Positions 9,132-23,592 of a DNA stretch of 64,000 nucleotides are shown here, piece by piece. The DNA is taken from NCBI RefSeq assembly GCF_003575965.1, contig NZ_QWJJ01000008.1:124001-188000 (forward strand), read 5' to 3'. The stretch is from Pseudooceanicola sediminis (GTDB lineage Bacteria > Pseudomonadota > Alphaproteobacteria > Rhodobacterales > Rhodobacteraceae). Both the position numbers and the translations under genes were made by a program. A model generated the notes under the pieces. It ran no database searches and was not told where the DNA came from. It saw nothing but the letters and a program-made list of their open reading frames with translations. The stretch's first letter is position 1; each line of letters begins with the position of its first letter.

Positions 9132-10217
9132 ATGAAACGAACCAGCAAGAGTTTACTTGGCCTTGTCGCGTTTGCCGGCCTTGCCTTGCCCGCTGACGCG
9201 CAGGACCTCAAGCCAGTGACAGTGACCGTCGGCACGTCGGTGCTGAACGTCGGCTATCCGATGCTGACCCTGCCCGTGACCCTCGGGTATTGGGCGGACG
9301 AGGGGTACGACGTGACGGTCGAACCTTCGGGTGCCTCGATGCAGGCGCTGCAACAGATGGTGACGCGCAACGCCGAATTCGCACAGGTCAATGCCTCGGT
9401 CGCGGTGCAGAGCAACGTCGAGAACGACCTGCCCGTGCGCATCGCCATGGCCAACGGCGTGATGGACTGGTCCATCGCCGTGCCGAAAGACAGCGACATC
9501 ACCTCTGTCGCGGATCTGAAGGGCAAGACCTTCGGGATCTTCTCGCTGGCGACGGGCGGCCTTCCCCTGCTGAAAAGCTACCTCAGCGACAACGGCATCG
9601 ACCCCGAAACGGACGTGACCTACATCCCCACCGGCTTTGGCGCCGGGCCAGTCGAGGCGCTGAAAAACGGCCAGGTCGACGCGTTGATGTACTGGGCCTC
9701 GGCCAACGCGGGCATGGAGAACGCCGGGCTGGACCTGCGCTATATCTTCGACGACAGCTGGCGCGAAATGCCTGACTATTCGCTGACGGTCACCGAAGCC
9801 ACGGTCAAGGACGACCCTGACATGGTTGTCGCCATTTCGCGCGGCGTCGCCATGGCAACCGTCTTTGCGCTGGCGAACCCGGAATGCGCGGTCAAACTGC
9901 ACTGGCAGGAATACCCCGAGACAAAGCCCGCCGGCACGGATGAGGCGGCAATCCTTCAGGCCGACCTGAACAACATCAACGCCCAGCTTAACACCCTGAA
10001 ACTGGGATATGAGCTGAACGGCGAAACCTGGGGCCAGGTCGATACCGATGCGCTGGACAGGCTTCAGGATTTCCTGACCAACAGCGGCATCGTGTCGAAA
10101 AAGATCGATCCGGCGACCTATCTGGTCGACATCCCCGATTTCGCGGCGCGGGTCAGCGATTTCGACGCAGATGCGATCAAGGCATCGGCCGAAGCCTGCG
10201 AGATGCTGAAAGGATGA
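9132..10217 (+). CDS. ABC transporter substrate-binding protein, NMT1/SsuA-like
   Basis: This is a periplasmic binding protein of 361 residues. AGGAG lies 6-10 bases before the ATG. The signal peptide is MKRTSKSLLGLVAFAGLALP and cleavage is likely after ADA (residue 23). The mature part shows NMT1/TauT-type features: VNVGYPMLTLPVTLGYWADE-like opening (split here as VLNVGYPMLTLPVTLGYW), VTVEPSGASMQALQQM, SVADLKGKTFGIF and a GQVDALMYW segment. Relatives bind nitrate, sulfonates, taurine or hydroxymethylpyrimidine. Its stop overlaps the ATPase start (ATGA), so the three transporter genes are translationally coupled. The purine-linked neighbours make a nucleobase or nucleoside-like ligand a plausible guess. 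Confidence 0.88.
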   Translation: MKRTSKSLLGLVAFAGLALPADAQDLKPVTVTVGTSVLNVGYPMLTLPVTLGYWADEGYDVTVEPSGASMQALQQMVTRNAEFAQVNASVAVQSNVENDLPVRIAMANGVMDWSIAVPKDSDITSVADLKGKTFGIFSLATGGLPLLKSYLSDNGIDPETDVTYIPTGFGAGPVEALKNGQVDALMYWASANAGMENAGLDLRYIFDDSWREMPDYSLTVTEATVKDDPDMVVAISRGVAMATVFALANPECAVKLHWQEYPETKPAGTDEAAILQADLNNINAQLNTLKLGYELNGETWGQVDTDALDRLQDFLTNSGIVSKKIDPATYLVDIPDFAARVSDFDADAIKASAEACEMLKG

Positions 10218-11053
10218 GCCATTCGCCCGACATCCAGACCGGCGCGCTTGCGCCGGCCTCCGTCGCGGCTGCAGTGTCGGGCGATCCGCTCGTCCGGATC
10301 GCCGCGCTGGAGAAGATCTATCCGACCCGCGACCGGGGCAACGTTCACGCGCTGAGCGACATTCATCTCGATGTGTCACAGGGAGAGTTCCTGACCATCG
10401 TCGGCCCGTCAGGCTGTGGCAAGTCGACCCTGCTCAAGATCCTTGCGGGGATTCTGGCCAAGACCTCCGGGCGGGTGCAGATTGCCGGGGCCGATCTGGA
10501 CGGCCCGAACCGGGATCTGGGCGTCGTGTTTCAGGCGCCCGTGCTGCTGCCTTGGAAATCGGTGATCGAGAATGTGCTGGTCCCGGCACGGGTGCAAAAG
10601 CTGGACATGGCCCCTGCCCGCCGCCGCGCCCGCGACCTGCTGGACCTGGTCGGCCTGTCCGGGTTCGAAGACCGCTATCCGGGCGAGCTTTCGGGCGGAA
10701 TGCAGCAACGTGTCGGCATTTGCAGAGCATTGATCCATCAGCCGAAATTCCTGCTGATGGATGAACCCTTCGGCGCCCTCGACGCCATGACCCGCGAACA
10801 GATGAACCTTGAGCTGCTGCGCATCTGGAAGGAACAGGATGCCACCATCCTGCTGGTCACCCACTCCATCCCCGAGGCGGTGTTCCTGGCGGACCGCGTC
10901 GTCGTCATGTCGCCCCGTCCGGGCCGGATTGCCGAGGTGATGCAGGTCGATCTGCCGCGCCCCCGGAATCTGGAGATGTTCAACACCGGCCGCTTCGGCC
11001 AGCATGTCGCCGCGATCCGGCGCCATTTCAACAGCACCGGAGGGATCGACTGA
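10214..11053 (+). CDS. ABC transporter ATP-binding protein, SsuB/TauB-like
   Basis: This is the cytoplasmic ATPase of the importer, 279 residues. Walker A GPSGCGKST is at 64-72, VVFQAPVLLPWKSV is the Q-loop region, the signature is LSGGMQQRVGICRAL, and Walker B is FLLMDEPFGALD, followed by LLVTHSIPEAVFLADRV. These are typical of the nitrate/sulfonate/taurine ATPase group. An N-terminal extension of about 30 residues precedes the ATPase fold. It overlaps the binding-protein gene by 4 bp and the permease gene by 1 bp. Confidence 0.93.
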   Translation: MSHSPDIQTGALAPASVAAAVSGDPLVRIAALEKIYPTRDRGNVHALSDIHLDVSQGEFLTIVGPSGCGKSTLLKILAGILAKTSGRVQIAGADLDGPNRDLGVVFQAPVLLPWKSVIENVLVPARVQKLDMAPARRRARDLLDLVGLSGFEDRYPGELSGGMQQRVGICRALIHQPKFLLMDEPFGALDAMTREQMNLELLRIWKEQDATILLVTHSIPEAVFLADRVVVMSPRPGRIAEVMQVDLPRPRNLEMFNTGRFGQHVAAIRRHFNSTGGID

Positions 11054-11901
11054 TGACCCAGATCGATACAAGCGACGCCATCCCGGCCAGCCAGCCCGCC
11101 GGCACCGCCAAGGGCGTCGCCCGCCACTGGAGCGAAAGCCGCGCCCTGTCCCCGATCCTGCTGATCGCCCTGATCCTGCTGTGGGAAGGTCTGATCCGCT
11201 GGTTCGAGGTGCCAAAAATCGTGGTACCGGCCCCCTCTGCCGTCTTTGTGGCGCTGTGGGACGGGATCGTTTCGGGCCTCTTCTGGCCGCACTTCCTCGT
11301 CACCTTGTGGGAAATCGTCGCCGGGTTCGGCATCGGCAGCGTGATCGGTATCCTGCTGGGCATCCTGATCGGCCTGTCGCCGCTGATGGAGCGGCTGATT
11401 TACCCCTACGTCGTCGCCTTCCAGACCCTGCCAAAGGTCGCCATCGCGCCGATCATCGTGATCTGGTTCGGCTATGGCCTCAGCTCCAAGATCATCATCA
11501 CCGCGACCATCGCGTTCTTTCCGCTGCTGGCCAATACCATCGTCGGCCTGCGCTCAGCCCCGCGGGAACAGATCGAGATGCTTGAAGCCTGCACCGCGAA
11601 CCGCTGGCAGATCTTTCGCATGATCCGCCTGCCGCAGGCCCTGCCCTTCATCTTTGTCGGCCTGGACGTGGCGGTGGTTCTGTCGGTCATCGGCGCCATC
11701 GTGGGCGAGTTCGTCGGCGCACGGGCCGGGCTGGGCTACCTGATCCTGCAAAAGAACTTCAGCTTCGACATGGCCGGCGTCTTTGCCATCCTGATCATCC
11801 TGTCGATGATCGGGGTCGGGCTGCACATGCTGGTGGTCGCCGTCCAGCGCCGTGTCCTGTTCTGGAGCGAGGCCACCGCAAATTCCGTCACCGGCGCCTG
11901 A
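11053..11901 (+). CDS. ABC transporter permease, SsuC/TauC-like
   Basis: This is an inner-membrane permease of 282 residues with about six membrane segments. The inner coupling loop reads EQIEMLEACTANRWQIFRMIRLPQALPFIF, quoted here in halves: EMLEACTANRWQIFRM and IRLPQALPFIF; it has the EAA-type permease pattern. The start overlaps the ATPase stop by one base (TGATG). It completes an importer with the genes at 9132 and 10214. It is followed by a 47-bp gap before the oxygenase. Confidence 0.92.
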   Translation: MTQIDTSDAIPASQPAGTAKGVARHWSESRALSPILLIALILLWEGLIRWFEVPKIVVPAPSAVFVALWDGIVSGLFWPHFLVTLWEIVAGFGIGSVIGILLGILIGLSPLMERLIYPYVVAFQTLPKVAIAPIIVIWFGYGLSSKIIITATIAFFPLLANTIVGLRSAPREQIEMLEACTANRWQIFRMIRLPQALPFIFVGLDVAVVLSVIGAIVGEFVGARAGLGYLILQKNFSFDMAGVFAILIILSMIGVGLHMLVVAVQRRVLFWSEATANSVTGA

Positions 11902-11948
11902 TACCGGGTGCCGATACCACAACCATACGATACATAAGGATAATTGCC

Positions 11949-12935
11949 ATGGAGCGTAACATCCGCGCCGCCAGCCGGGACGAAGTGCCCGTCCTCGATC
12001 TGACCCCGCTGACCACCGGCGGCGACATCACCGCACTGGCCGAGGCGCTGGACGCCGCCTGCCGCAACACCGGGTTTTTCTACGTCAAGAACCACGGCGT
12101 CCCCGAATTTACCCTGAACGCGGTCTTCGGGGCGACCCGCCGCTATTTCGCGCTGCCCCAGGAGGTCCGCGATGCACATGTGATGGATCCGGTGTTCCGC
12201 CGTGGGTTCATGCCACAGGGCGTCACCAAGCACCCGGGCTTCAAGGCCGATCTCAAGGAAAGCTACGAGGTGGGCGTCGACCTGCCGCTGGACGATCCCG
12301 ATGTCGCCGCCGGGTTGCCCCTGCACGGGCCGAACCAGTGGCCAGAGGAGTTTCCCTGGCTGCGCGAGGCCGCCGAGACCTATTTCAACGAAATGCGCGC
12401 CCTGGGCGAGCGGATGTTGCGGCTGGTGGCCTTGGCCGTGGGTATGCCCGAGGATCACTTTCTGCAATTCAACACCAAGCCGATGGTGCAGATGCGCCTG
12501 TTCCACTATGCCCAACAGCCCGAAGCCGCCGAAGAGGATGGCCAGCACGGTGCCGCGCCGCATACGGACTACGGGTTGCTGACGCTGCTGGCGCAGGACC
12601 CGATCGGCGGGCTGGAATTGCAGACGCGGCAGGGCGAATGGGTCAAGGCCCCCTATATCGACGGCGCCTTCGTGGTGAACATCGGTGACCTGTTCCAGCG
12701 ATGGACCAATGATCGTTACTTCTCCAACAAGCACAGGGTCGTCAACCTGACCGGACGCGAGCGCTATTCGATTCCATTGTTCTACAATCTGGATTATCAC
12801 GCTCCGGTCGAATGCCTGCCAAGTTGCCTGGCCGAAGGTGAGACGCCAAAACATGCGCCCACCACCTGCGGAGAGTACCTGACAGGTCGATTCAAGGCCG
12901 TTCAGGGGTACAAGACCAAGGAAGAGCTGGCCTGA
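11949..12935 (+). CDS. isopenicillin-N-synthase-like 2-oxoglutarate/Fe(II) oxygenase
   Basis: This is a soluble non-haem iron oxygenase of 328 residues. The N-terminal DIOX domain reads VPVLDLTPLTTGGD to NTGFFYVKNHGVP. The iron facial triad is His205 and Asp207 in PHTDYGLLTLL and His262 in NKHRVVN; RYSIPLFYN carries the likely 2-oxoglutarate-binding Arg and Ser. The family includes thymine 7-hydroxylase, 1-aminocyclopropane-carboxylate oxidase and gibberellin oxidases. It lies in the transporter operon next to adenosine deaminase, so oxidation of a methylated or modified nucleobase is an attractive but unproven role. Confidence 0.85.
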   Translation: MERNIRAASRDEVPVLDLTPLTTGGDITALAEALDAACRNTGFFYVKNHGVPEFTLNAVFGATRRYFALPQEVRDAHVMDPVFRRGFMPQGVTKHPGFKADLKESYEVGVDLPLDDPDVAAGLPLHGPNQWPEEFPWLREAAETYFNEMRALGERMLRLVALAVGMPEDHFLQFNTKPMVQMRLFHYAQQPEAAEEDGQHGAAPHTDYGLLTLLAQDPIGGLELQTRQGEWVKAPYIDGAFVVNIGDLFQRWTNDRYFSNKHRVVNLTGRERYSIPLFYNLDYHAPVECLPSCLAEGETPKHAPTTCGEYLTGRFKAVQGYKTKEELA

Positions 12936-12997
12936 TCACAGGCCGGGGTGGCCCTGAAACGGGGCCGCCCGATCAAACGGGGAGAGTGAGGGGGCGC

Positions 12998-14008
12998 GTG
13001 TCGACGGATGTGACGATCAAGGATATCGCGCGGCTGGCCGGGGTCTCGGTCTCGACCGTGTCGCGGGTGGTCAACCGCTCCGGGCTGGTGGCGCCGAACA
13101 AGCGCCTGGCGGTGGAGCATGTCCTGTCGCAGGTAAACTACATTCCCAACAACGCCGCCCGCGCCCTGGTCAAGCGGCGCAGCATGACCATCGGGCTGAT
13201 CGTGCCCACCTTGTCCAATCCGATCTTTGCCCCCAGCATCGGCGCCGTTGAAACGGTTCTGGCCGAACATGGCTTTGGCCTTCTGATCTCGTGCAGCCAT
13301 CGCGACCCCGAAGCCGAACTGGCGCAATCGCGCACGATGATTGAGCGTGGCGTAGAAGGTATAATCTTTACAGGCAGTTACCGGCACCCCGGCGTCATGC
13401 CTATGATCGCGGCGCGGGGCATCGCCGCGGTCAGCCAGGATGATCCGGAAGGCGCGCCGGGGCTGTTGTCCATCGGGATGCCGGATGCGGCGGCGATGGC
13501 CTGCGCGATCGACGAGCTGGTGGCGCGCGGGCATCGCCGGATCGGCATCGTCACCGGCCCGACCCGCAACACCCGCCCCATCGCGGACCGCCTGTCCGGC
13601 GGCCTGGCGCGGCTGGCTGAACATGGCATCGCCCTGGGCGACGCTGGCGTGACCGAAGCCAGCGATTATTCCGCCGAGGCCGCGCGCCTGGCGACCCGAA
13701 AGCTTATACAGCAAAGTCAGGACCTTACGGCCATTGCCTGTACCGGCGACATGCCCGCGATCGGTGTCGTGGCCGAGTGCATGGCCCAGGGAATTCGGGT
13801 GCCTGACGATATCTCGATCACGGGGTGCGGCGAAACGATCATGGCCCAATACGTGCATCCGTCGCTGGCCACCGTGCGCCTGCCCTTTGCCGAGCTGGGC
13901 CGACTGGCCGCGCAAGGGCTGCTGGACATGATCGAGGGGCGTCCGGCGGCCCCGGTGGCCCCTTTGGACTATGCGTTCGTTCCGGGCAATTCCATCCGCT
14001 CTGTCTAG
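12998..14008 (+). CDS. LacI-family transcriptional regulator
   Basis: The protein is about 336 residues from the GTG at 12998 (GAGGGG just upstream); a GTG at 12986 would add four residues. The helix-turn-helix at the N-terminus is VTIKDIARLAGVSVSTVSRV followed by NRSG and the hinge helix PNNAARALVKRRS. The core is a periplasmic-binding-protein-like sensor (TIGLIVPTLSNPIFAPSIGAVE to DDISITGCG). It closes the ABC/oxygenase gene set and probably represses it through the CG-centred palindromes at 9027-9051. The effector is unknown. Confidence 0.92.
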   Translation: MSTDVTIKDIARLAGVSVSTVSRVVNRSGLVAPNKRLAVEHVLSQVNYIPNNAARALVKRRSMTIGLIVPTLSNPIFAPSIGAVETVLAEHGFGLLISCSHRDPEAELAQSRTMIERGVEGIIFTGSYRHPGVMPMIAARGIAAVSQDDPEGAPGLLSIGMPDAAAMACAIDELVARGHRRIGIVTGPTRNTRPIADRLSGGLARLAEHGIALGDAGVTEASDYSAEAARLATRKLIQQSQDLTAIACTGDMPAIGVVAECMAQGIRVPDDISITGCGETIMAQYVHPSLATVRLPFAELGRLAAQGLLDMIEGRPAAPVAPLDYAFVPGNSIRSV

Positions 14009-14430
14009 GGCGGTATTCACGTCGGTATCTTGACGGTATCCAAGCGGTGCCGGGACCGCGCCGCCCTCTGTGCCGTCTGTCGCGATTACGCGCGCTTTGC
14101 CCCCCCATTCGCCCCGCCTGCCACTCTCGCCTCAGCGCCGCTCATCCGGCGGGCGCCTTCAGCCCGGAGTGCGGATCGGGCGAAACCTCCTTGGCTTTCG
14201 CACCGGCGCGGTCGGTCGCATGACCGCTCTTGTCCGGGGCCATGGCGGACGCCTGGGGACGCGCCGCAGCGGCCCTGTGACAACCGGGAATGCTGGTGAC
14301 TGCCCCCCAAGGCAGGTATGGCGCGCCGCCTTGGGGGGTGTCAGGGCGCGGCGCCGCCGCAGGTCGGTCCGGGGTCCACCGTCGCCGCTGGTGACTGGCA
14401 GATCCCGGTTTCAGGCGGTCCGGGCCGCTG
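14009..14430. other. 422-bp gene-free interval between lacI-type gene and ilvD
   Basis: No convincing coding frame: the open frames here lack ribosome sites and are Arg/Pro/Gly-rich shadow translations. The only clear structure is the long inverted repeat at 14303-14338. Both flanking genes converge on this interval. Confidence 0.6.
14303..14338. terminator. 11-bp perfect inverted repeat between convergent genes
   Basis: CCCCCCAAGGC (14303-14313) pairs with GCCTTGGGGGG (14328-14338) around a 14-base loop. It lies downstream of both the LacI gene (+) and ilvD (-). There is no T tract, so intrinsic termination is uncertain; it may act as an RNA-stabilising 3' hairpin. Confidence 0.45.
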
Positions 14431-16284
14431 CTACTTGGCGGGCCGCGTCAGCTGGGTGACGTCACGCACCGCACCGCGCGACGCCGAGGTGGTCAGAGCC
14501 GCATAGGCCTTGAGCGCGCTCGACACCCGGCGCGTCCGCTTCTCCTCGGGGACCCAGCCCTTGTCGTCGCGCGCCTGGCGACGGGCGGCCAGTTCGGCGT
14601 CGTCCACGGCAAGCACGATCTTGCGCGCCGGTATGTCGATCTCGATCAGGTCGCCGTCCTGCACCAGGCCGATGGTGCCGCCTTCGGCCGCTTCGGGCGA
14701 CACATGCCCGATCGACAGACCGGACGAGCCGCCGGAAAACCGCCCGTCCGTGACCAGCGCGCAGGCTTTCCCAAGACCCTTCGACTTGAGGTAGGACGTC
14801 GGATACAGCATTTCCTGCATCCCCGGCCCGCCGCGCGGCCCCTCATAGCGGATCAGAACGATGTCGCCCGCGGTGATCTTGCCGGTCAGGATCGCATTCA
14901 CGGCGCTGTCCTGGCTTTCAAAAATGCGGGCCGGGCCGGAAAAGGTCAGGATCGACTCGTCGACGCCCGCCGTTTTCACGATACAGCCCTCTTCCGCGAG
15001 GTTGCCGTACAGCACCGCCAGGCCGCCATCCTGGGAAAAGGCGTGCTCGGCATCGCGGATCACGCCCGCCTTGCGATCAAGGTCCAGCGCGTCATAGCGG
15101 CGGCTTTGCGAAAACGCGGTCTGGGTCGGAATGCCCCCCGGCGCGGCGCGGAAAAAGTCGTGCGTGCTGGACAGGTTCGTGCGCGCCACGTCCCACCGGT
15201 CGAGCGCATGGGCCATACTTTCGGCGTGCACGCAGCCGACGGTCGTGTCCAGCAGGCCCGCGCGGTCGAGTTCGCCCAGGATCGCCATGATCCCGCCCGC
15301 ACGGTGCACGTCTTCCATGTGCACATCGTTTTTCGCGGGCGCGACCTTGCACAGCACCGGCACGTTGCGCGACAGCTTGTCGATCTCGGCCATGTCGAAA
15401 TCGACCTCGCCTTCGTTGGCGGCGGCCAGCAGGTGCAGGACGGTGTTCGTCGACCCGCCCATCGAGATGTCCAGCGTCATCGCGTTCTTGAACGCCGGCA
15501 GCGTCGCGATCGACCGCGGCAGGACCGAGGCATCGTCCTGTTCGTAATAGCGTTTGGCAAGATCGACGATCAGGTGACCGGCCTCGACGAACAGCCGCTG
15601 GCGATCGGCATGGGTGGCCAGGGTCGACCCGTTGCCCGGCAGCGACAGGCCAAGCGCCTCGGTCAGGCAGTTCATCGAGTTTGCGGTGAACATCCCCGAG
15701 CACGACCCGCAGGTCGGACAGGCCGCCCGTTCGATGGCATCCACCTGCGCGTCGGAATAGCGCGAGTCGGCGGCGGCGACCATCGCATCGACCAGGTCCA
15801 GCGCCTGTTCCTTGCCCTCCCAGACGATCTTGCCCGCTTCCATCGGCCCGCCGGACACGAAGACGACGGGGATGTTCAGCCGCATGGCGGCCATCAGCAT
15901 CCCCGGCGTGATCTTGTCACAGTTCGAAATGCAGACCATCGCGTCGGCGCAATGGGCGTTTACCATGTATTCGATGCTGTCCGCGATGATTTCCCGCGAG
16001 GGCAGCGAATACAGCATCCCGTCATGCCCCATGGCGATACCGTCATCGACCGCGATGGTGTTGAATTCCTTTGCAACGCCGCCCGCCTTCTCGACCTCGC
16101 GCGCGACCATCTGGCCAAGGTCCTTGAGGTGGACATGGCCGGGCACGAACTGGGTAAAGCTGTTGGCAATCGCGATGATCGGCTTGCCGAAATCATCGTC
16201 CTTCATGCCGGTGGCGCGCCAGAGGCCGCGGGCGCCAGCCATGTTTCGGCCATGCGTGGTCGTTCTTGAGCGGTAGCGGGGCAT
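14431..16284 (-). CDS. ilvD: dihydroxy-acid dehydratase
   Basis: The enzyme dehydrates 2,3-dihydroxy-isovalerate and -methylvalerate in isoleucine and valine synthesis. The protein is 617 residues, the usual length. The iron-sulfur cysteines lie in [12 protein letters not shown] and [17 protein letters not shown], and the start region [20 protein letters not shown] is diagnostic. [16 protein letters not shown] occurs near the C-terminus. It is a stand-alone gene with its own upstream gap of about 250 bp. It marks the last clearly chromosomal gene on the left of the integrated element. Confidence 0.97.
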
Positions 16285-16540
16285 TGGGTTTTCCTTGGAT
16301 TTGGACGTCTAGCCGACCTTAGAATTGAAACCGTCTTGCTGTATCCGACTATGGGAATGGAGTAAATTTTATTTTCCGCGCATCGCGGTGCGGGCGTGTC
16401 GCCCCCTCGCCTGCGTCGCACGCCGATCCCGGCATGCACGGCCCCGGCACCGCTCCAACGCGCGGCAAGGCGCCCGTCTTGAGGGCGTCTTGGGGGGCAG
16501 GCGCCATCCGCAGGGGAGCATTCCTCGGCCCGTCCTGTCC

Positions 16541-17254
16541 TCAGCCCGTCCCGTCCGCGCAATGGCGCTGGCGCAGACGCGCGATGCGCGCTGCCTCGAA
16601 CTCTCCGTAGTGCAGGCCGTAAAGCACCATGATCCGATCAAAGCGAAGCAGGTACTGGCATTGAAAGCCCCTGTCGGGGGGCAGCCATTCCGCCGCCCCC
16701 TGCGCCCCCTTTGATCGGTTGGCCGAGGCATCGACGGCGAACAGGTTGCGCGTGTCGTTGGCAAAGGCGATGCGTTTGTCCCGAGACCAGTGGGCAGCGC
16801 CGCGCACATGCGCATAGGCCAAAGGCACCAGGTGATCGATGTCGAGGTCTGCGGCGTCCAGAAAGATACGGCCCGTATAGGGATCCAGCCAGCGCCCCCG
16901 CACCACCGTGCACCCTGCGCCGTTCCAGGTGACCGCGACGGTGGAAAGCGCGGCCAGAATCTCCTGCCGGGTGTTCTGACAATCGCCATCCGTATCGAGC
17001 CAATCCCCGTAAAGGTCACGATCATAGGCGTCCGAAGGGGCCTCGGCCGCCCCCGGTTCGTAGCCGGAATAGGCCCGGCCCGTCGTCAGGCAGGTGGCCA
17101 TGTCGGGCATGGCCGTGAAACGCGCCGTCCGCCCGTACCAGGGCGACGCCGCATCATGGCAGATGCCCGACGCGCTCAGCTTGACCGGCTCGGCGCTGGC
17201 CAGCGGCGCCAAAAGGACGACCGCAAAGGCAAATGTCACGAGAAATCTGAACAA
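16541..17254 (-). CDS. secreted HNH-type (DUF1524-like) nuclease
   Basis: I read a protein of about 237 residues beginning at a TTG codon (17254), which gives a proper signal peptide (FRFLVTFAFAVVLLAPLASA, cleavage near 21). A GTG at 17239 is also possible; the frame extends upstream to 17434 but that part is not signal-like. The nuclease core is DIDHLVPLAYAHVRGA (Asp140-His141), FANDTRNL (Asn170) and ANRSKG, the pattern of secreted HNH/GmrSD-C-like nucleases. Likely role: extracellular or periplasmic DNA degradation. It sits between ilvD and the phage-derived element and may belong to either. Confidence 0.75.
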   Translation of the reverse strand: MFRFLVTFAFAVVLLAPLASAEPVKLSASGICHDAASPWYGRTARFTAMPDMATCLTTGRAYSGYEPGAAEAPSDAYDRDLYGDWLDTDGDCQNTRQEILAALSTVAVTWNGAGCTVVRGRWLDPYTGRIFLDAADLDIDHLVPLAYAHVRGAAHWSRDKRIAFANDTRNLFAVDASANRSKGAQGAAEWLPPDRGFQCQYLLRFDRIMVLYGLHYGEFEAARIARLRQRHCADGTG

Positions 17255-17590
17255 GCCCCAACCCCCAAATATTCGGCCCGACCAGCGCGCCGGTCGGACG
17301 TCGCTGGTGTCACCCAAGTGCCCCACTTGGAATGCCCCACCTGACATTGCGCCAAACTGTGACCAGAATGCGACGGCCGCCCCTTTATCGCTGACCCCAT
17401 ATCGCCGCCCTGCGCCGCCGCCCCCGTACCGCAAGCCCGTACCGCAAGGCCGTGACCGCCGCCCCGCCTTCGATCAACGCGCCTGGGCCAGCGCGCCCCG
17501 TCTGAACGCATCCGGCGACAGGCGACACCTCAATCAATCCCAGGGGCGCATTGCCCCCTGCTGCCCCTGCTCAACCCGTGCCCCATCCCC
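17255..17590. other. 336-bp junction region before the truncated capsid gene
   Basis: No gene is evident. The interval contains a 7-bp hairpin (CCAAGTG at 17314-17320 with CACTTGG at 17324-17330), a shorter dyad ACCAGCG/CGCTGGT (17281-17287, 17302-17308), and a 13-bp tandem duplication CCCGTACCGCAAG (17425-17437 and 17438-17450). The capsid frame is open from 17456 but its upstream translation is Pro/Arg-rich and not capsid-like. The left boundary of the integrated element probably lies here. Confidence 0.5.
17425..17450. repeat. 13-bp tandem duplication at the left edge of the element
   Basis: Two exact copies of CCCGTACCGCAAG abut. They lie a few bases before the capsid frame opens. They could be a scar of the deletion or recombination that removed the capsid gene's 5' end. 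Confidence 0.6.
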
Positions 17591-18478
17591 GTGCCGTGGC
17601 AGGCGCTGGAAGTGCGTGAGGGCGAGACCATCTCGGGCGGCACCGTCGCCCCCGTCCAGACCCGGCCCATCATCGAACGGCTGTTCCCCGACAGTGTGGC
17701 CACCCGCATGGGGACGCAAATGATCAGCATCGACCGGGGCGCGGTCGAATGGCCGGTGACCACCTCGGCCGTGACGGCAGGCTGGGCAAACGGGGAAGGC
17801 GGCAACGTGGCCGGGCCGTCTGCCTACAAAACGGCAAACAAGGCCCTGAAGCCCGATCACAACCTGGGCATTCAGATGCGGATCACGCGCAAGACGCTCC
17901 AGCAATCGGGCGGCGCACTGGAACAGGCTGTACGCCGCGACATGAATGGCGCGATGGCGATGGAGCTGGACCGGGCGATCTTCCAGGGCACCGGGGAAGA
18001 CGGCCAGCCCCTCGGCGTGATCTCGGGCGCTGAGGACTATGGCATCCCCATCACCGCGGTTGATGCGCCTGGTCTGTGGGGGCCGTTCCGCTCCGGTGTG
18101 GTGCGGTTCATGAACGAGAACACCGCCTCCAGCCCGTCCGACGTGAAGGCGCTGATCCGTCCCGAGTTGTGGGACTTCATGGACAGCGTTTTGGCGGCCA
18201 GCACCGGACCGATCTGGGAGTGGGATCGGATGATCAAGGCCTTGGGCGCAAGCAACGTGGTCATGTCCGGCACGGCTCTGAGCGCGCCGACGGGTGATCC
18301 CTTGGCGGTGTCGTCGCTGTTGACGACCCGCGTTGGGGGCGTTGCGCCGATCTTCATCGGCTCCTGGGGGGCCATGGACCTGATCCGCGATCCCTATTCC
18401 GACGCCCAGTCTGGCGGCCTGCGGATCACTGCGCTGGCGACCATGGACGTGACGGTCGCCCGCCCCAAGCAGCTCTAG
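17591..18478 (+). CDS. HK97-type major capsid protein, 5'-truncated
   Basis: This reads as the C-terminal, shell-forming part of an HK97-fold capsid protein, about 295 residues from a GTG at 17591. Family-like segments are SGGTVAPVQTRPIIERLF at the start, AGWANGEGGN, RITRKTLQQSG, the long helix ALEQAVRRDMNGAMAMELDR, then GTGEDGQPLGVIS and a C-terminal VTVARPKQL. Intact relatives carry about 100 more N-terminal residues (the delta scaffold domain or a fused protease), which are missing here. No ribosome site is visible at the GTG. The gene may be a remnant, or a delta-less capsid used by a satellite. Confidence 0.8.
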   Translation: MPWQALEVREGETISGGTVAPVQTRPIIERLFPDSVATRMGTQMISIDRGAVEWPVTTSAVTAGWANGEGGNVAGPSAYKTANKALKPDHNLGIQMRITRKTLQQSGGALEQAVRRDMNGAMAMELDRAIFQGTGEDGQPLGVISGAEDYGIPITAVDAPGLWGPFRSGVVRFMNENTASSPSDVKALIRPELWDFMDSVLAASTGPIWEWDRMIKALGASNVVMSGTALSAPTGDPLAVSSLLTTRVGGVAPIFIGSWGAMDLIRDPYSDAQSGGLRITALATMDVTVARPKQL

Positions 18479-18513
18479 GTGCTGAGCGGCCTGGAACTGG
18501 CGTTGCGCTCCTG

Positions 18514-19092
18514 ATGCTTTGGGGTGCACACAGCGACGGCCTTGAGCTGCGCACCGTTGGCGGGGAAACCCGCCTTCGGGCCACCTTCCCCTATGGCCAG
18601 GCAACCGTGCTGGCCGAAGCCATGGGGCGGGGACGTGCCCGTCATGAAGTGATCGCGACCCGCGCCTTTGCGGATCGGATCGGCAGCGGCGAGGATATCC
18701 ATTTCCTCGCCGGCCACGACTTCAACAAGCCGCTGGCCTCACGATCCGCCGGCACGTTGAGCCTGACCGAAAGCGACAGCGCGCTGACCATGGAAGCGAC
18801 AATCAGCGCCGATATGGCAGGCGTGTCCTATGTGCGGGACTTCCTGTCTGCCCATGCTGCCGGGCTGGTGCGGGGCCTGTCACCGGGTTTCCGCGTGCGC
18901 CCAGGTGGTGAGACGGTCGAGGAACGCGGCAACGCGATCCTGCGCACCATCCGTTCCGCTGATCTGATCGAGATCTCGGCGGTCACGCGCCCCGCCTATC
19001 CCGACGCCCAGATCGAGGCGCGGAACTGGCAACCCATTGGCGAGATCGTCGGGCGCATGGCCCACCGACCCGCCGCCCTGCGATGGAGGTAA
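18514..19092 (+). CDS. HK97-family prohead protease
   Basis: The protein is about 192 residues, the usual size of the maturation protease that cleaves capsid delta domains. Likely catalytic residues are His68 in LAGHDFNKPL and Ser123 in GLSPGFRV, with LIEISAVTRPAYPDAQIE forming the conserved C-terminal strand. It lies 35 bp after the capsid gene and 4 bp before the portal gene, on the same strand. In most HK97-like phages the protease precedes the capsid gene; here it follows. With a capsid lacking the delta domain its substrate would be missing. Confidence 0.88.
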   Translation: MLWGAHSDGLELRTVGGETRLRATFPYGQATVLAEAMGRGRARHEVIATRAFADRIGSGEDIHFLAGHDFNKPLASRSAGTLSLTESDSALTMEATISADMAGVSYVRDFLSAHAAGLVRGLSPGFRVRPGGETVEERGNAILRTIRSADLIEISAVTRPAYPDAQIEARNWQPIGEIVGRMAHRPAALRWR

Positions 19093-19096
19093 CGGA

Positions 19097-20161
19097 ATGT
19101 TCGGATGGCTGAAAAGCAAGGCCCGCCCGATCGAGCAACGATCGAGCGGCGCGGGCTACACCGCCCAGATCATGCAGGCGCGGGAAAGTTATATCTCCGG
19201 GCGACGTGGCGTGGCCGAACTGACCGCCACCGTGCAAAGCTGCGTCAGCCTCTGGGAAGGCGGCTTTGCCATGGCCGATGTCAGCGGCACCGACCTGCTG
19301 ACCCGCCAAAACATGCCCATGATCGCCCGCGCCGTCGCCCTGAATGGCGAAGCCGTGTTTCTGATCACCGACTTGGGCCTTGTGCCTGTGACGGATTGGG
19401 ACCTGACCACCCGCAATGGCCAGCCGCGCGCCTATCGCCTGTCGATCCCCGAGGCAGGCGGGCCGCGCAGCCTGACCGCGCTTGCCGCAGAGGTGCTGCA
19501 CCTGCGGATCGGTTCGGACCACCTGACGCCATGGATCGGCACCGCGCCCTTGCGCCGCTCAAGCCTAACCGGGGCCATGCTGCATGCGGTCGAAACCGCG
19601 CTGACAACGGTGTTTGAAGATGCACCGCTTGGCAGCCTGATCGTGCCCCTGCCGGATAGCGGCGCGGGCGACATGGAGGGGATGCGCCACGCCTTCCGGG
19701 GGCGGCGCGGCTCAACCCTGATCATCGAGGGCGTTGCCCAGGCAACGGCGGCAGGCATGAACCCGACCATAGGGCAAAAGCCGGATCAGCTTTCCCCGGA
19801 TCTGTCCAAATCGATGACCGACGAAACGCTGGCCGCTGCCCGAGAAGGGATCTTGATGGCCTACGGCGTCCTGCCTGCGCTGGCCAACCGGGCCACCACC
19901 GGCCCCGTGGTGCGCGAGGCACAGCGCCAGCTCGCAATCTGGACGCTACAGCCCATTGCCGCCCTGCTGGCGGACGAGGCCAGCGCCAAGCTGGGGGCCG
20001 TGGTCGAGATCGACACCATCCGCCCCCTGCAAGCCTTCGACGCTGGCGGGCGCGCCAGAGCGCTGTCGGCAATCGTCAAAACCATGGCCGAAGCGAAAGA
20101 GGCGGGCATTGCCGCCGCTGACGTCTCCGGCGCGATGCGCATGGTGGATTGGAAGGAATAG
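19097..20161 (+). CDS. phage portal protein, HK97 family
   Basis: The portal forms the dodecameric DNA gate of the phage head. I chose the ATG at 19097 because GGAGGT lies 7-12 bases upstream; the frame extends to 19037. The protein is about 354 residues. It shows portal-like segments AVALNGEAVFLITD, AAEVLHLRIGSDHLTPWIGTAPL, GMNPTIGQKPDQL, and AREGILMAYGVLPALANRAT followed by a helix ending REAQRQLAIWTLQPIAALL. Length is slightly below the family's usual 380-430 residues. It is the last head gene; no terminase or connector follows. Confidence 0.85.
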   Translation: MFGWLKSKARPIEQRSSGAGYTAQIMQARESYISGRRGVAELTATVQSCVSLWEGGFAMADVSGTDLLTRQNMPMIARAVALNGEAVFLITDLGLVPVTDWDLTTRNGQPRAYRLSIPEAGGPRSLTALAAEVLHLRIGSDHLTPWIGTAPLRRSSLTGAMLHAVETALTTVFEDAPLGSLIVPLPDSGAGDMEGMRHAFRGRRGSTLIIEGVAQATAAGMNPTIGQKPDQLSPDLSKSMTDETLAAAREGILMAYGVLPALANRATTGPVVREAQRQLAIWTLQPIAALLADEASAKLGAVVEIDTIRPLQAFDAGGRARALSAIVKTMAEAKEAGIAAADVSGAMRMVDWKE

Positions 20162-20274
20162 GCCGGATGCGCCTGGGGTTGTTCATGCCCCAAGCATCCC
20201 GGATCAGTCGGTGAGTGCCGTAACAACCCCGACAGCGCGCGGCCTGTGCTCCTTCGGGCGCGGCGCGCTCATTG

Positions 20275-20790
20275 TCATTTGCGTGGATATTTTACATCAA
20301 CTTGGCGCCAGAGTTCATCGATTAGAGACGTTGCTTCGGAGTATTGCGCTTTACTGTTCTTCATGCAGCTCCACAAAGTTCTCTCTTCTTTTTCAAAAAC
20401 ATTTTCCCAACCGAACTTCTCGCTATGCATCGGGAGAAAACAATGGGCCGCTGCATGCATAGTTTCGCATATCGGCTTCGCATCCAAGCCATAGGATGCT
20501 GCCAAGCTCGTGAATTTCATTTGAGCTGCATTGAACCTATCTTGGTTCGATGCGGGGATCTCCTCTTTTGATTGCCTTTTGCTAGCTAACTCGAAGTATC
20601 CTTCCAGATCGCTAGTCGCGTCGATCAGACCATCTATCGCACTTCTGAGCTCATCTCTCACACCTCTAGCTTCATCGTTTCGCCTGTCCAAATAATGCTG
20701 ACGAGCTGGCCAGAGAAGCCCTCCGATAATACCCAGAACGGAACCTGTAGCTGTGATAATCAGGGTGTAATCTTGAGCTGCCCAAGTCAT
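20275..20790 (-). CDS. hypothetical membrane-anchored protein
   Basis: The protein is about 171 residues. It begins MTWAAQDYTLIITATGSVLG and has one N-terminal membrane segment (about 8-28), followed by a charged, mostly helical cytoplasmic part with RRNDEARGVRDELRSAIDGL resembling a coiled coil. The start (20790) overlaps the stop of the XRE regulator gene by 4 bp, so both are translated from one transcript under XRE control. Base composition is AT-richer than the surrounding chromosome. I do not recognise the family. A phage-exclusion or maintenance function is possible from context only. Confidence 0.7.
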   Translation of the reverse strand: MTWAAQDYTLIITATGSVLGIIGGLLWPARQHYLDRRNDEARGVRDELRSAIDGLIDATSDLEGYFELASKRQSKEEIPASNQDRFNAAQMKFTSLAASYGLDAKPICETMHAAAHCFLPMHSEKFGWENVFEKEERTLWSCMKNSKAQYSEATSLIDELWRQVDVKYPRK

Positions 20791-21008
20791 TTTTTTAACC
20801 TCACGCCGACACCGCCGCCATTTTCGGGTATAAACTCGACCCCCGCACCTTCGAGCGCGATCTTGATCACTGCGACGGTTGAGGGCTTCAATGGCTCTCC
20901 GCGCTCCAGGCGTGAAATTGTAGCCTGTGCCACCCCTGCCAACTCTGCAAGGTCGCGAACGCCCAGCCCAACCGCGACCCGAGCCATCTTGCATTGAACT
21001 GCGTTCAT
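20787..21008 (-). CDS. XRE-family repressor-like regulator
   Basis: The protein is about 73 residues from the ATG at 21008 (a GTG at 21020 is also in frame). The HTH reads ARVAVGLGVRDLAELAGVAQ followed by ATISRLERGEPLKP, a Cro/C1-type fold, with a short C-terminal tail and no sensor domain. It is divergent from the gene at 21100. Two identical dyads (ATAAC-N3-GTTAT) lie in the shared promoter region, one next to its own start. It is likely the repressor that sets the element's quiescent state. Confidence 0.88.
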   Translation of the reverse strand: MNAVQCKMARVAVGLGVRDLAELAGVAQATISRLERGEPLKPSTVAVIKIALEGAGVEFIPENGGGVGVRLKK

Positions 21009-21012
21009 TTTA

Positions 21013-21025
21013 ATAACCACGTTAT
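21013..21025. promoter_or_regulatory. XRE operator 1 (leftward promoter)
   Basis: ATAAC-CAC-GTTAT, a dyad with perfect 5-bp arms. It lies a few bases upstream of the repressor start. Read leftward it overlaps TATAAC (complement of 21021-21026), a good -10 for the repressor operon. Confidence 0.7.
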
Positions 21026-21060
21026 ATTTTTGTTGACTGCGCTTGCGATAAATGAAAAGT

Positions 21061-21073
21061 ATAACTCTGTTAT
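21061..21073. promoter_or_regulatory. XRE operator 2 (rightward promoter)
   Basis: ATAAC-TCT-GTTAT, the same dyad as at 21013 with centres 48 bp apart. It overlaps a TATAAC -10 box (21060-21065) facing right, so binding would block transcription of the 21100 gene. The matching sequence and position on both promoters are seen directly; the assignment to the XRE protein is inference. Confidence 0.7.
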
Positions 21074-21099
21074 CATAATCTAATCAGGAGTCCCTGACA

Positions 21100-21501
21100 A
21101 TGAGCAATGAACGCGCCTGCGCGAACGGCCGATCTATGTCCCGTCGCACCTTGTTGACCGCTTTGCCGGTTGCGGGGGTTTCCTTGGTTCTGCCTGCGAT
21201 CTCTATCGCTCAAGCAACTGACCCACATCCGGCCTGGCTAGATCAGTGGCGGGCCGCTTACGCAGACTGGTGCGCTGGTTTGGCGATAAGCGAGGATGAC
21301 ACCCCGGCCACAGACGCGCTGTACGAGCGGGTGAGCAAGATCGAAACGAGGCTGGAAACCACTCCGGCGAAAACCGTCTCAGGCGCCCTCGCGATTGTGG
21401 AATACGTGATCGAGGACGCAGGAGGCGAATTTTCCTACCCGGGCCACGCTCAGGCGCTGGAACTGGCGCGCGATGCTCTGCGGATCGCATCTTTCACCTG
21501 A
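21100..21501 (+). CDS. hypothetical exported protein with Tat-like signal
   Basis: The protein is 133 residues. AGGAG lies 13-9 bases before the ATG. The N-terminus MSRRTLLTALPVAGVSLVLP (from residue 13) carries two arginines before a hydrophobic stretch, with cleavage likely after AIA or IAQA, resembling a Tat or Sec signal. The mature part is acidic and Trp/Ala-rich (WLDQWRAAYADWCAGL). It is divergent from and probably controlled by the XRE protein. I do not recognise the family; related small proteins may occur on other integrated elements. Confidence 0.65.
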   Translation: MSNERACANGRSMSRRTLLTALPVAGVSLVLPAISIAQATDPHPAWLDQWRAAYADWCAGLAISEDDTPATDALYERVSKIETRLETTPAKTVSGALAIVEYVIEDAGGEFSYPGHAQALELARDALRIASFT

Positions 21502-21546
21502 GCCGAAAATCACCCCGCCAGCCTCAAGCCTTCCTCACCCGGGTTA

Positions 21547-21576
21547 TTGACTAACGCCATATATAGGTCATATAAG
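21547..21576 (+). promoter_or_regulatory. predicted promoter of the excisionase/integrase operon
   Basis: TTGACT (21547-21552) and TATAAG (21571-21576) with an 18-bp spacer, in AT-rich DNA 35 bp before the ATG at 21611. GGGTTA (21541-21546) and TAACCC (21588-21593) form a dyad around it. Confidence 0.55.
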
Positions 21577-21610
21577 AACTTATTGCCTAACCCAGCAAGG
21601 AACGAAAGCC

Positions 21611-22126
21611 ATGGTTGAAAAGCTGCCCACCAAAGAAATCTGCGACATACTCGGCATTGATCGCCAACGCTTGAATGAGGACATCGCCAGCGGGGCCTAC
21701 TACTTCGCCCCCGAAGCCGAAGCCCAGCACATCGGGCGTCTCTGGGACGAAGCCGACGTCTTTGGGCTGTTCGTCTATTCGTTCCTTTCGCGCGTCTACT
21801 CCTCCCTCGATGATCAGTCCAAGCGGTCTGACCACCGCAAACCGGCGATCAGCAAGCGCGTTGCGGCCATGTACGCGGAACAAATCGTTGCCGCCGCCCG
21901 CTCGCCCGAAACGAATGGGGCATCGCGCATCGACTTCCCGCTGACCGGCTTCAACAACGACTGGACCGCCAACAAAGTCGGTTCCGCCCCCTGTTTCATC
22001 GCGAACGGAGCCATTTCCAATGTCGCGACCATCTGTTTCAGCCTCGACGGCATCCGCGACGAGATTGAGGGCCGCAAGAAATTCATGGCTGAGCGCGCTG
22101 CCAACAACACCAACGCCATCGACTAA
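21611..22126 (+). CDS. hypothetical protein with N-terminal HTH-like segment
   Basis: The protein is 171 residues. The start follows AAGGAACGAAAGCC. The N-terminus KLPTKEICDILGIDRQRLNE resembles a short helix-turn-helix of the MerR/excisionase kind. The remainder has no recognised motif but includes YAEQIVAAARSP and LTGFNNDW. It is followed 12 bp later by the excisionase-like gene and then the integrase, so all three likely share one transcript. Function unknown; a regulatory or directionality role is possible. Confidence 0.65.
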   Translation: MVEKLPTKEICDILGIDRQRLNEDIASGAYYFAPEAEAQHIGRLWDEADVFGLFVYSFLSRVYSSLDDQSKRSDHRKPAISKRVAAMYAEQIVAAARSPETNGASRIDFPLTGFNNDWTANKVGSAPCFIANGAISNVATICFSLDGIRDEIEGRKKFMAERAANNTNAID

Positions 22127-22138
22127 GGAAGATCGCCA

Positions 22139-22375
22139 ATGGCAAATGCGAACCTCAATATTAGCGTTATCCAAGTGCGGATGATGAAGCAGGCTGAGGC
22201 TGCCAACTACACCGGCCTGCCGGTGAAGTATTTCAAATCCGCCTGCCCGGTTCAGCCGGTTGAGGTGCGTCCGGGGACTATCCTCTGGGACAAGCGCGAC
22301 CTCGACAAATGGATTGACGACATGAAGGAAGGCGAAGACCTGACCACCCAAGCGTCGATCCTGGGCAAATTGTAA
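22139..22375 (+). CDS. excisionase-like small HTH protein (AlpA/MerR-type fold)
   Basis: The protein is 78 residues. KQAEAANYTGLPVKYFKSAC is the winged-helix DNA-recognition part and GTILWDKRDLDKWIDDMKE is the typical C-terminal strand and helix of HTH-17/excisionase proteins. AGGAAGATCGCC precedes the ATG. Its stop codon overlaps the integrase start by one base (TAATG), indicating co-translation. The role would be control of integration direction or of transcription, as for Xis or AlpA. Confidence 0.75.
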   Translation: MANANLNISVIQVRMMKQAEAANYTGLPVKYFKSACPVQPVEVRPGTILWDKRDLDKWIDDMKEGEDLTTQASILGKL

Positions 22376-23466
22376 TGAAGCAGATCAGGGTCAAAGGCTT
22401 CAAGATCTTCAATGACCGGCACGGGAAACCGCGCTGCTACCATCGTGCTACCGGCCACAAGATCGACTTGGAAAGGGCCCCGCTCGGCTCTGCCGAATTC
22501 TTCGCGGAATGCACCCGGATCTCTGCCATTGCCGAAGCCAAGAAAGCATTGGGTCCTAAGCCCGGAACGCTCGGCGGCTTGATCTTGGTCTATTTCGAGA
22601 CAGAGCACTTTCAGAACCGCGCACCCGCCACACAGCGCGACTACCGCAAGTGCGCCGATTTTCTTTACCCGATACGCGACACGCCGGTTTCCGTCATCAA
22701 TACCCCGCTGATCGCGGGCATCCACGACAAGGCGGCAGCCAAGATTGGCTGGCGGCGCGCTAACATGGTTCGCACCTTTCTGGGCCAGGTCTTCCGCTTT
22801 GCCGTCCCGAAGGGTCTGATTGATCAAGACTACTCGGCAGCCGTCATCCCGAAGCCCCGCCCCAAGGACCGCCCCTATGCCAACCGCCCGTGGAAGCAGG
22901 ACGAACGCACGATAGTGCTTGAGCGCACTGCCCCGCATGTTCGCGTTGTCATCGCATTGATTATGAATACCGGCCTCGACCCCTCCGACGCCCTCAAGCT
23001 GACACGTCGCCAGATCGACGGCAGCACCATCTGGGGTTTCCGAGGCAAAACTAACGAAGAGATTGCGATTCCTATCGGCCCGACGCTGCAAGCCGCGCTA
23101 GATGCCGCGCCCGAACATGACGCGGTGACAATCCTCGCCAACTCCAGGGGCAAGCCATGGACGTATGACGGTTTCTCGACCGTCTGGCACCGCTTCAAGA
23201 TGAAGCTGGAAGAGGAAGGTTTGGTGCAACCCGGCCTGACCCTCAAGGGGCTGCGCCACACTGTGGCAACGACGCTGAGAGAGACGGGAATGGGAGAACG
23301 ACAGATTGCCGATCTGCTGGGGCAGAAAACCCCGGCGATGGCCCGCCACTACTCGCGTTCAGCCAACCTTGCGGAACGCAATCGCCTGACACTGGACGTG
23401 CTGGAAAAAGAGAACGAGCGGCGCTCTGAAATTGTCAAACCGTTCTCTAAAACTGTCAAACCTTAG
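22375..23466 (+). CDS. tyrosine-family integrase with atypical catalytic residues
   Basis: The protein is 363 residues with an N-terminal DNA-binding arm, a core-binding region and a C-terminal catalytic domain. The catalytic tyrosine is Tyr326 in ARHYSR, and Arg294 lies in LKGLRHT. The usual first Arg position, in NTGLDPSDAL, is Asp202; the usual His of HxxR is Lys291; the usual His/Trp is Gln317 in LLGQKTP. The rest is conserved enough to call the family with confidence. The gene ends 51 bp from the CCA end of tRNA-Phe, so it probably integrated the element there. Confidence 0.9.
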   Translation: MKQIRVKGFKIFNDRHGKPRCYHRATGHKIDLERAPLGSAEFFAECTRISAIAEAKKALGPKPGTLGGLILVYFETEHFQNRAPATQRDYRKCADFLYPIRDTPVSVINTPLIAGIHDKAAAKIGWRRANMVRTFLGQVFRFAVPKGLIDQDYSAAVIPKPRPKDRPYANRPWKQDERTIVLERTAPHVRVVIALIMNTGLDPSDALKLTRRQIDGSTIWGFRGKTNEEIAIPIGPTLQAALDAAPEHDAVTILANSRGKPWTYDGFSTVWHRFKMKLEEEGLVQPGLTLKGLRHTVATTLRETGMGERQIADLLGQKTPAMARHYSRSANLAERNRLTLDVLEKENERRSEIVKPFSKTVKP

Positions 23467-23517
23467 GAGGTCTTCCGGAATGGAAACGGAAAAAAACTTT
23501 ACCACCAAGGATTTAAG

Positions 23518-23592
23518 TGGTGCCCGGGGGCGGAATCGAACCACCGACACGAGGATTTTCAATCCACTGCTCTACCCCTGAGCTACCCGGGC
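23518..23592 (-). tRNA. tRNA-Phe (GAA)
   Basis: The cloverleaf is read on the minus strand: acceptor GCCCGGG pairs with CCCGGGC, the D-arm is GCTC...GAGC, the anticodon loop is TTGAAAA (anticodon GAA), the T-arm is GGTGG/CCGCC, and the genome encodes the CCA. There is one T-T mismatch in the anticodon stem. Its 3' end faces the integrase and is the likely attachment site; the tRNA is intact. Confidence 0.95.

Follow-up and report, generated by a model that had tools for sequence, protein, structure and literature searches.

Genetic organization of the element at tRNA-Phe

The window analyzed in this study, a 64,000-nt stretch of the Pseudooceanicola sediminis genome (assembly GCF_003575965.1, contig NZ_QWJJ01000008.1, positions 124,001–188,000), contains the remnant of a small phage-related element that ends at a tRNA-Phe gene. 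Three head genes follow one another on its + strand: (i) a remnant of the major capsid gene (17585..18478; PF05065 Phage_capsid, E 1.7e-14), which encodes the mature HK97-fold part and is 53–84% identical to 42 relatives over the matched part, (ii) an intact open reading frame (ORF) for an S78 prohead protease (18514..19092; PF04586 Peptidase_S78, E 1.6e-22; 52–84% identity to relatives) and (iii) an intact portal gene (19097..20161; 354 aa). The portal protein matches PF04860 Phage_portal at E 3e-9 with 37 bits, slightly below the curated cut-off of 39.1; the assignment was retained because it shares 79–87% identity with 30 relatives. Inspection by eye gave no convincing start codon for the capsid remnant.

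The right-hand part of the element contains genes for regulation and integration. An XRE/Cro-like repressor (20787..21020, − strand; PF01381 HTH_3, E 3.3e-7) has relatives in most of the 42 loci described below. An AlpA/excisionase-like ORF (22139..22375, +), matched by phrog_66 only and at E 0.013, has a 65% identical counterpart at the same position in three related loci (L054, L055 and L088). The intact tyrosine integrase (22375..23466, +; 363 aa; PF00589 Phage_integrase, E 2.1e-13) shares 85% identity, across 363 aa, with its counterparts in L054 and L055, and 69% with that of L088. The element terminates with a 48-bp attR core (23518..23565), identical to the att core of L055, which is the 3′ end of the tRNA-Phe gene (23518..23592, −; identified by ARAGORN) that served as the integration target.

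An earlier, sequence-only reading of this DNA had listed a repressor, an excisionase-like protein, an integrase and tRNA-Phe after the head genes. All four lie where it placed them, with the repressor on the opposite strand. It had drawn the element at 17456..23592; the capsid gene is incomplete, and the recognizable remnant spans 17,585–23,565. It had also noted that the head set ends without terminase, connector, tail or lysis genes. This holds for the window, where Pfam and PHROGs searches of the nine ORFs between 17,462 and 23,466 detected none of these families, but not for intact family members, which encode a terminase and a connector. The window copy is a truncated copy of a recurrent integrative element of Rhodobacterales, of approximately 10.2 kb.

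Intact relatives

The portal query recovered 42 loci, of which 19 belong to species genomes and 23 to viral contigs; their portal sequences comprise 31 distinct ones and 11 identical duplicates. The order capsid–protease–portal on one strand, proposed in the earlier reading and confirmed by the Pfam matches, is kept in 42 of 42 loci (the capsid of L029 being partial), and is therefore not a product of chance. The large terminase gene (TerL) lies upstream in 41 loci, two of which are cut by the contig end, and is missing from L029. HNH was found in 41 loci and the connector in 39; the latter is absent from L029 and from L033 and L059, both of which begin at a contig end. The intact order is g1 – connector – o75 – TerL – head-completion protein – HNH – capsid – protease – portal – regulatory and accessory genes – integrase – tRNA. 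The terminase is of the HK97 type (PF03354/PF20441 in L039, where HNH matches PF01844), and the gp6-like connector belongs to PF05135 and NCBIfam TIGR02215. ORF similarity revealed the head-completion protein in 11 of 15 elements checked (L018 and L055 have no space for it), and all three proteins tested matched PF05521.

Direct repeats matching a tRNA (tRNA-Cys, Thr, Glu, Arg or Phe) bound the elements in 16 of the 42 loci. They are 15 to 51 bp long, and the three that are just 15 bp start exactly at the tRNA. In L054 the contig begins inside attL; the remaining 15 att-bounded copies have a mean length of 10,234 bp (standard deviation about 190; range 9,990–10,599). Among the species-genome loci, 14 are widely flanked on either side, and ten of these show tRNA-overlapping repeats. 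The compact order with intact capsid and terminase, which the earlier reading had proposed to look for as a mark of a satellite, thus recurs at tRNAs and also at tRNA-Phe itself (L054, L055, L088), L055 being the intact sibling that carries the tRNA-Phe att core.

In 28 elements, the gap between o75 and TerL (e.g. L039 1142–1518) contains non-coding islands, each about 20 bp long, that are conserved and are candidate packaging or promoter sites. A cos site may lie at this position, but the islands are no more conserved than capsid coding DNA. A role of g1 as neck protein or small terminase was not retained, its model consisting of helices only and matching no PDB entry at E ≤ 0.001.

A more distant group comprises 15 further regions from whole genomes, with portals 50–62% identical to that of L039 (81% in L095). 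TerL–HNH–capsid–protease–portal occur in this order in 13 of the 15 (with broken genes in L087); L093 gave no protease match and L094 contains just part of the portal. In seven of the 15, repeats that overlap a tRNA (tRNA-Glu, Asn, Ser, Phe, Arg or Met) mark the ends and give lengths of 9,663–11,200 bp; in L083 the repeat is away from any tRNA, and seven others have no repeat. L093, from another family of the class, carries D5_N/DUF5906, and L086 carries a primase/helicase-like AAA_25 protein (Pfam; primase/helicase PHROGs). The integrases track the site of insertion and not the head genes: in L088, located at tRNA-Phe, the integrase shares 69% identity with that of the window, and the portal 53%.

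Truncation of the window copy

DNA alignments of the window to L032, L042, L053 and L055 all start at 17584/17585, within the capsid gene. Capsid homology begins at approximately residue 117–122 of a protein of about 423 residues, so the N-terminal ~117 residues are gone. A search of window positions 10000–17700 turned up nothing credible of the lost left half, and no second copy of the tRNA-Phe core, i.e. attL, was found in the window, even with 6 substitutions permitted. Elsewhere in the genome the sole TerL match (26%) lies inside a tailed prophage, and the host genome itself is a miss in the TerL profile survey of the order.

The break is abutted by a nuclease gene outside the element (16541..17434, −; GmrSD_C/HNH-like, PF07510, E 1.6e-7). 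In G170, the best DNA match among 22 other genomes of the genus, the homolog of this gene lies about 194 kb from tRNA-Phe, and no element gene occurs in the 0.8 kb fetched beyond that tRNA (an HflC-like ORF was recognized by eye). The left end was therefore removed by deletion or rearrangement. The protease, portal and integrase ORFs remain open, which suggests that the event was recent. The window copy no longer has attL, TerL, HNH, the neck genes or the N-terminal part of the capsid, and is expected to be incapable of excision or packaging on its own. Its lack of terminase and connector is a local accident and not a trait of the family.

An exact 13-bp tandem duplication is located to the left of the break (17423–17448). 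The position of the break at the boundary between the N-terminal and mature parts of the capsid raised the idea of a domesticated encapsulin-like shell; no plausible start was seen by eye, and the position is read as chance. A second left-truncated copy is present in Sagittula salina (L029, 8659–11164), where capsid homology begins at residue ~174 and the 10 kb upstream yielded no part of the left half.

Genes outside the core and selection on head genes

Outside the TerL-to-portal core, seven elements contain 195 ORFs of at least 60 aa. Up to 21 of the longest per element were taken (145), of which 141 were scanned. The 12 Pfam families detected at E ≤ 0.001 include none for tail or lysis, and no gene of tape-measure size was found in the elements. 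As to possible defense cargo, PADLOC reported 14 families among these 141 ORFs, with the names control protein, RmrA, mad1, capH and HTH_VI. HTH_17, of interest for AlpA/Stl-type regulation, matched 1 of the 141 ORFs.

The head genes are under purifying selection, with median pairwise dN/dS values of 0.086 for the portal, 0.116 for TerL, 0.128 for the capsid, 0.187 for the protease, 0.222 for the connector and 0.236 for g1. The greater variation of the connector may reflect its facing a foreign tail.

Distribution

The portal was detected in 19 of 149 genomes of the family at E ≤ 1e-10: 13 matches (that of P. sediminis included) are near full length with at least 53% identity, two are at 30–31% and four are partial. 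Across the class, 3 of 385 genomes, again with its own, matched at E ≤ 1e-30. At E ≤ 1e-80, the TerL profile matched 32 of the 292 genomes surveyed for the order, spread over 24 of 112 genera, places being counted by profile match; TerL copies with stops occur at 7 of 37 places in this survey and also in L035.

In 50,697 phage records, neither the portal nor the connector found a match. The capsid matched 11 records with 27–33% identity over 27–43% of its length. In IMG/VR, the best 80 of 145 confirmed capsid loci all lie on contigs of at most 15,577 bp; as a control, the capsid of the genome's own tailed prophage identified five contigs, all of 20–87 kb. In a plasmid collection the portal matched one record, a Pseudorhodobacter replicon. 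A Roseomonas mucosa plasmid (pTT14-8, 16,883 bp; L163) is annotated with HNH, portal, protease, capsid and terminase genes and with no tail, and is a candidate satellite-plasmid in Rhodospirillales. The literature searched contained no description that we recognized of this element in Rhodobacterales; an earlier mention may exist.

Nature of the elements

Taken together, gene content, boundaries and conservation make it probable that these elements are capsid-forming phage satellites of Rhodobacterales, integrated at tRNA 3′ ends, which encode their own head and packaging proteins and would use the tails of a helper. The best reading is a new Alphaproteobacterial family functioning like capsid-forming phage-inducible chromosomal islands (cf-PICIs). 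It is treated as a variant of the cf-PICI kind rather than as proven cf-PICIs because the two were compared by description and not by sequence, a small terminase was not found and helper dependence is predicted. Intact relatives probably borrow tails from a helper phage. One that could serve an intact copy is a tailed phage of the type of the genome's own prophage (G000:C45, ~197–213 kb; L096, L074), which encodes Terminase_4, Phage_portal, Peptidase_S49, Phage_capsid and TMP_2. This prophage shares an HK97-fold capsid and a Phage_portal protein with the elements, but differs in its order of small terminase–TerL–portal–S49 protease–capsid and in having a 1,095-aa tape-measure protein.

In the proposed cycle, a helper phage would derepress the element, and the integrase and AlpA-like protein would excise it. 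Its own proteins may then build a small head, of triangulation number (T) about 3 as judged from 10.2 kb of DNA. A cos-type terminase would package one unit genome, this mode being suggested by the HK97-like TerL and HNH. The connector and the head-completion protein are predicted to dock the head onto helper tails, which would deliver the DNA of the element to a new cell. For T=3 and T=4, the modeling of Luque et al. (PMC7762592) predicts genomes of 11.78 and 17.98 kb, respectively, in intervals that are broad and overlap. Of the integer T values given there, T=3 comes closest to 10.2 kb, which is also near the figure for T~2.49 (8.94 kb). The same authors find it puzzling that tailed phages with T=1 and T=3 are lacking. 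If the satellite interpretation is correct, capsid-forming satellites are common in a major marine bacterial group, as judged by the TerL profile survey, and a T=3 HK97-fold tailed capsid becomes testable through their narrow 10-kb size.

Several observations weigh against this interpretation. It was built on genes, particles, induction and a helper being predicted, and the loci were fetched with portal or capsid queries and exact peptide patterns, which favors near relatives. No family match to a small terminase was obtained, two small helical proteins being present upstream of TerL, and the family-less products of g1 and o75 could hide a tail function, although these are small proteins with helical models. 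Furthermore, g1 matched one phage, Paracoccus phage KLEP18-1, one of whose proteins shares 52% identity with g1 across 42% of the latter, and TerL matches 144 phage records at E ≤ 1e-3 (best matches 28–30%, HK97-like), i.e. it has remote relatives in ordinary phages. The 25 PHROGs families listed, out of 48 for the 141 ORFs, include none for tail or lysis. PICIs usually have their own replication primase, and none was recognized in the four near members scanned (L018, L026, L053 and L055). The connector was recognized in just 4 of the 15 distant loci. Four of the 14 widely flanked loci (L030, L031, L035 and L036) show no tRNA-overlapping repeat; L035 and L036 adjoin tmRNA. Regarding IMG/VR, the trimming of its proviruses by prediction can make contigs shorter, and of the five control contigs one, at 100% identity, is probably the genome of the window itself.

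The sequence-only reading had left open whether the element is a satellite or a decayed prophage. Both parts find a place: the family is satellite-like, and the window copy has decayed, although what decayed was itself satellite-like and not a tailed prophage. An origin of the elements through independent decay of ordinary HK97-like prophages, in which the head module happened to survive, is already disfavored, and we regard it as very unlikely. Decay is evident in individual copies, i.e. the broken window copy, L029 with nothing to the left of its capsid homology, L087 with TerL in pieces, L094 with its partial portal, and the TerL copies with stops. Across 31 distinct copies, however, size is uniform, att repeats are exact, the gene set is conserved and dN/dS is low, which does not fit such a process; nor do a portal unmatched in phage records and capsid relatives confined, among the best 80 of 145 in IMG/VR, to contigs of no more than 15.6 kb. 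The tail and lysis modules of HK97-like temperate phages were not detected in the elements scanned, and sister prophages with full sets of these, named in the earlier reading as evidence for decay, were not seen in the phage records, IMG/VR or genome loci searched. Even less likely is a domesticated head system of the host resembling a gene transfer agent (GTA). Rhodobacterales carry GTAs, and the elements share an HK97-fold capsid with the Rhodobacter capsulatus GTA (RcGTA) and a connector of TIGR02215, the family to which the RcGTA adaptor presumably also belongs. However, RcGTA has the order portal–protease–capsid, tail genes and no integrase, an arrangement that was not found in the elements; their reverse order, integrase, att sites at several tRNAs and patchy occurrence (32/292 genomes) indicate a mobile element. 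As for GTA tails acting as helper, the shared connector family is the sole link.

The elements could also be complete miniature phages, with a tail that is unrecognized or replaced by another route of exit and entry, e.g. vesicles. This explanation is improbable, if somewhat less so than the former two. A genome of ~10 kb falls within the range of small tailed phages modeled by Luque et al. (PMC7762592), and several small genes have no assigned function. On the other hand, neither a tail or lysis family nor a gene of tape-measure size was found, the available space is filled by genes for head, packaging, regulation and integration, and the connector and head-completion protein imply an attached tail.

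Comparison with known satellites

Like the elements described here, cf-PICIs carry their own capsid, protease, portal, connector, TerL, HNH and regulator genes and no tail genes (PMC10690885, PMC13230959). Of their integration and regulatory traits, the integrase and XRE regulator are present in the window, AlpA being represented only by the phrog_66 match mentioned above. In contrast, cf-PICIs average 14 kb (PMC10803314) versus ~10.2 kb here. The Rhodobacterales family also differs in that no small terminase was found, no primase was recognized in near members and a conserved RNA follows the portal. The cf-PICI host list given in PMC10803314 names no Alphaproteobacteria; PMC10690885 refers to cf-PICIs as “widely distributed across Bacteria”.

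The Streptomyces phage satellites MulchRoom and MiniFlayer similarly encode their own capsid and packaging genes, and MulchRoom is described as having a tail of helper length with no tail genes detected (PMC10690885). Compared by description, these differ from the present elements in being Actinobacterial, with virulent helpers and direct terminal repeats (PMC10690885). The cf-PISP satellite-plasmid TG54 of Vibrio also combines head and packaging genes with the lack of tail genes, but it is episomal, 15.8 kb in size and carries plasmid maintenance genes (PMC13230959), whereas the Rhodobacterales elements integrate at tRNAs.

A structured RNA downstream of the portal gene

An RNA of ~87 nt with two hairpins (20195..20281, +), predicted from covariation (model R1), lies 33 nt past the window portal and 31–80 nt past the portal in 23 relatives. 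The model was trained on 24 sequences (the window and 23 of the 31 near elements) chosen by motif, and the conservation is therefore partly one of choice; the score of 90 bits for the window is that of a training sequence. In the alignment 96.1% of cells pair, and both partners vary in 7 of the 18 pairs. At 0.223, the covariation score is higher than those of all 500 shuffles (mean 0.109), which leave kinship among the sequences in place, and of all slid versions (0.041–0.108). The RNA is not a plain terminator, as judged by the lack (by eye) of a T run after the second hairpin and by conservation of the non-stem parts.

At E ≤ 0.05, R1 matched 29 places in 52 sources, i.e. the 24 training sequences and L081, L082, L093, L095 and L162. 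It did not match eight near elements (L023–L026, L029, L045, L054 and L055), 11 of the 15 distant loci or the tailed prophage (L096, L097). With stricter filters, 5 of 120 family genomes matched at E ≤ 1e-4. Four matches lie outside the family of the window. In L170 and L171 (9,851 and 10,154 bp between repeat starts) the RNA is flanked by a lambda-type gpA terminase upstream and a lambda-type portal downstream, and L171 also retains g1 and o75. In L172, an 8,959-bp element with toprim and DUF3987 genes, it follows a lone HK97 capsid; no phage gene was recognized around the RNA in L173.

We tentatively propose that the RNA marks a backbone shared by a superfamily of 9–11-kb tRNA-integrated satellites of Rhodobacteraceae with an interchangeable head module, and that it could be a satellite-specific RNA for packaging, assembly or late regulation. 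The modules exchanged would possibly be, with the same reserve, the HK97-type set, the lambda-type gpA terminase with portal, and the lone HK97 capsid. The conserved RNA offers a handle to find satellites with different head modules.

The RNA is at best a distant relative of Rfam Proteo-phage-1 (RF03044). Full-length matches to this family were obtained after the portal in the window (20160–20237; 20.4 bits), L056 (25.5 bits) and L048 (22.8 bits), none of which reaches the gathering score of 42; four further loci scanned had no match of this kind. A scan of 7 loci at the gathering threshold likewise gave no match to the family. Near the integrase end of L057 (8746–8861) there is a match to radC RNA (28.9 bits versus a gathering score of 40). 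In G170, which lacks the element of the window, a region (C1:1325147–1325876) contains short DNA matches to window positions 20226–20269, inside the RNA, and 21072–21126, at the start of the gene at 21100..21501 described below; this is perhaps another RNA-bearing element.

Accessory genes of the window copy

Three further genes of the remnant gave no convincing family assignment. The protein encoded at 20275..20790 (−) has a hydrophobic N-terminus, judged by eye, no Pfam match and a 41% identical relative in L053, and that encoded at 21611..22126 (+), with weak matches only and a 37% identical relative in L025, is a possible regulator. The third gene (21100..21501, +; no Pfam match) encodes a small protein with a twin-arginine-like N-terminal motif, recognized by eye, whose N-terminal part is 66–68% identical to its counterpart in L039. 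This gene and its relatives, located beside the repressor, share a conserved twin-arginine-like N-terminus and a variable C-terminus.

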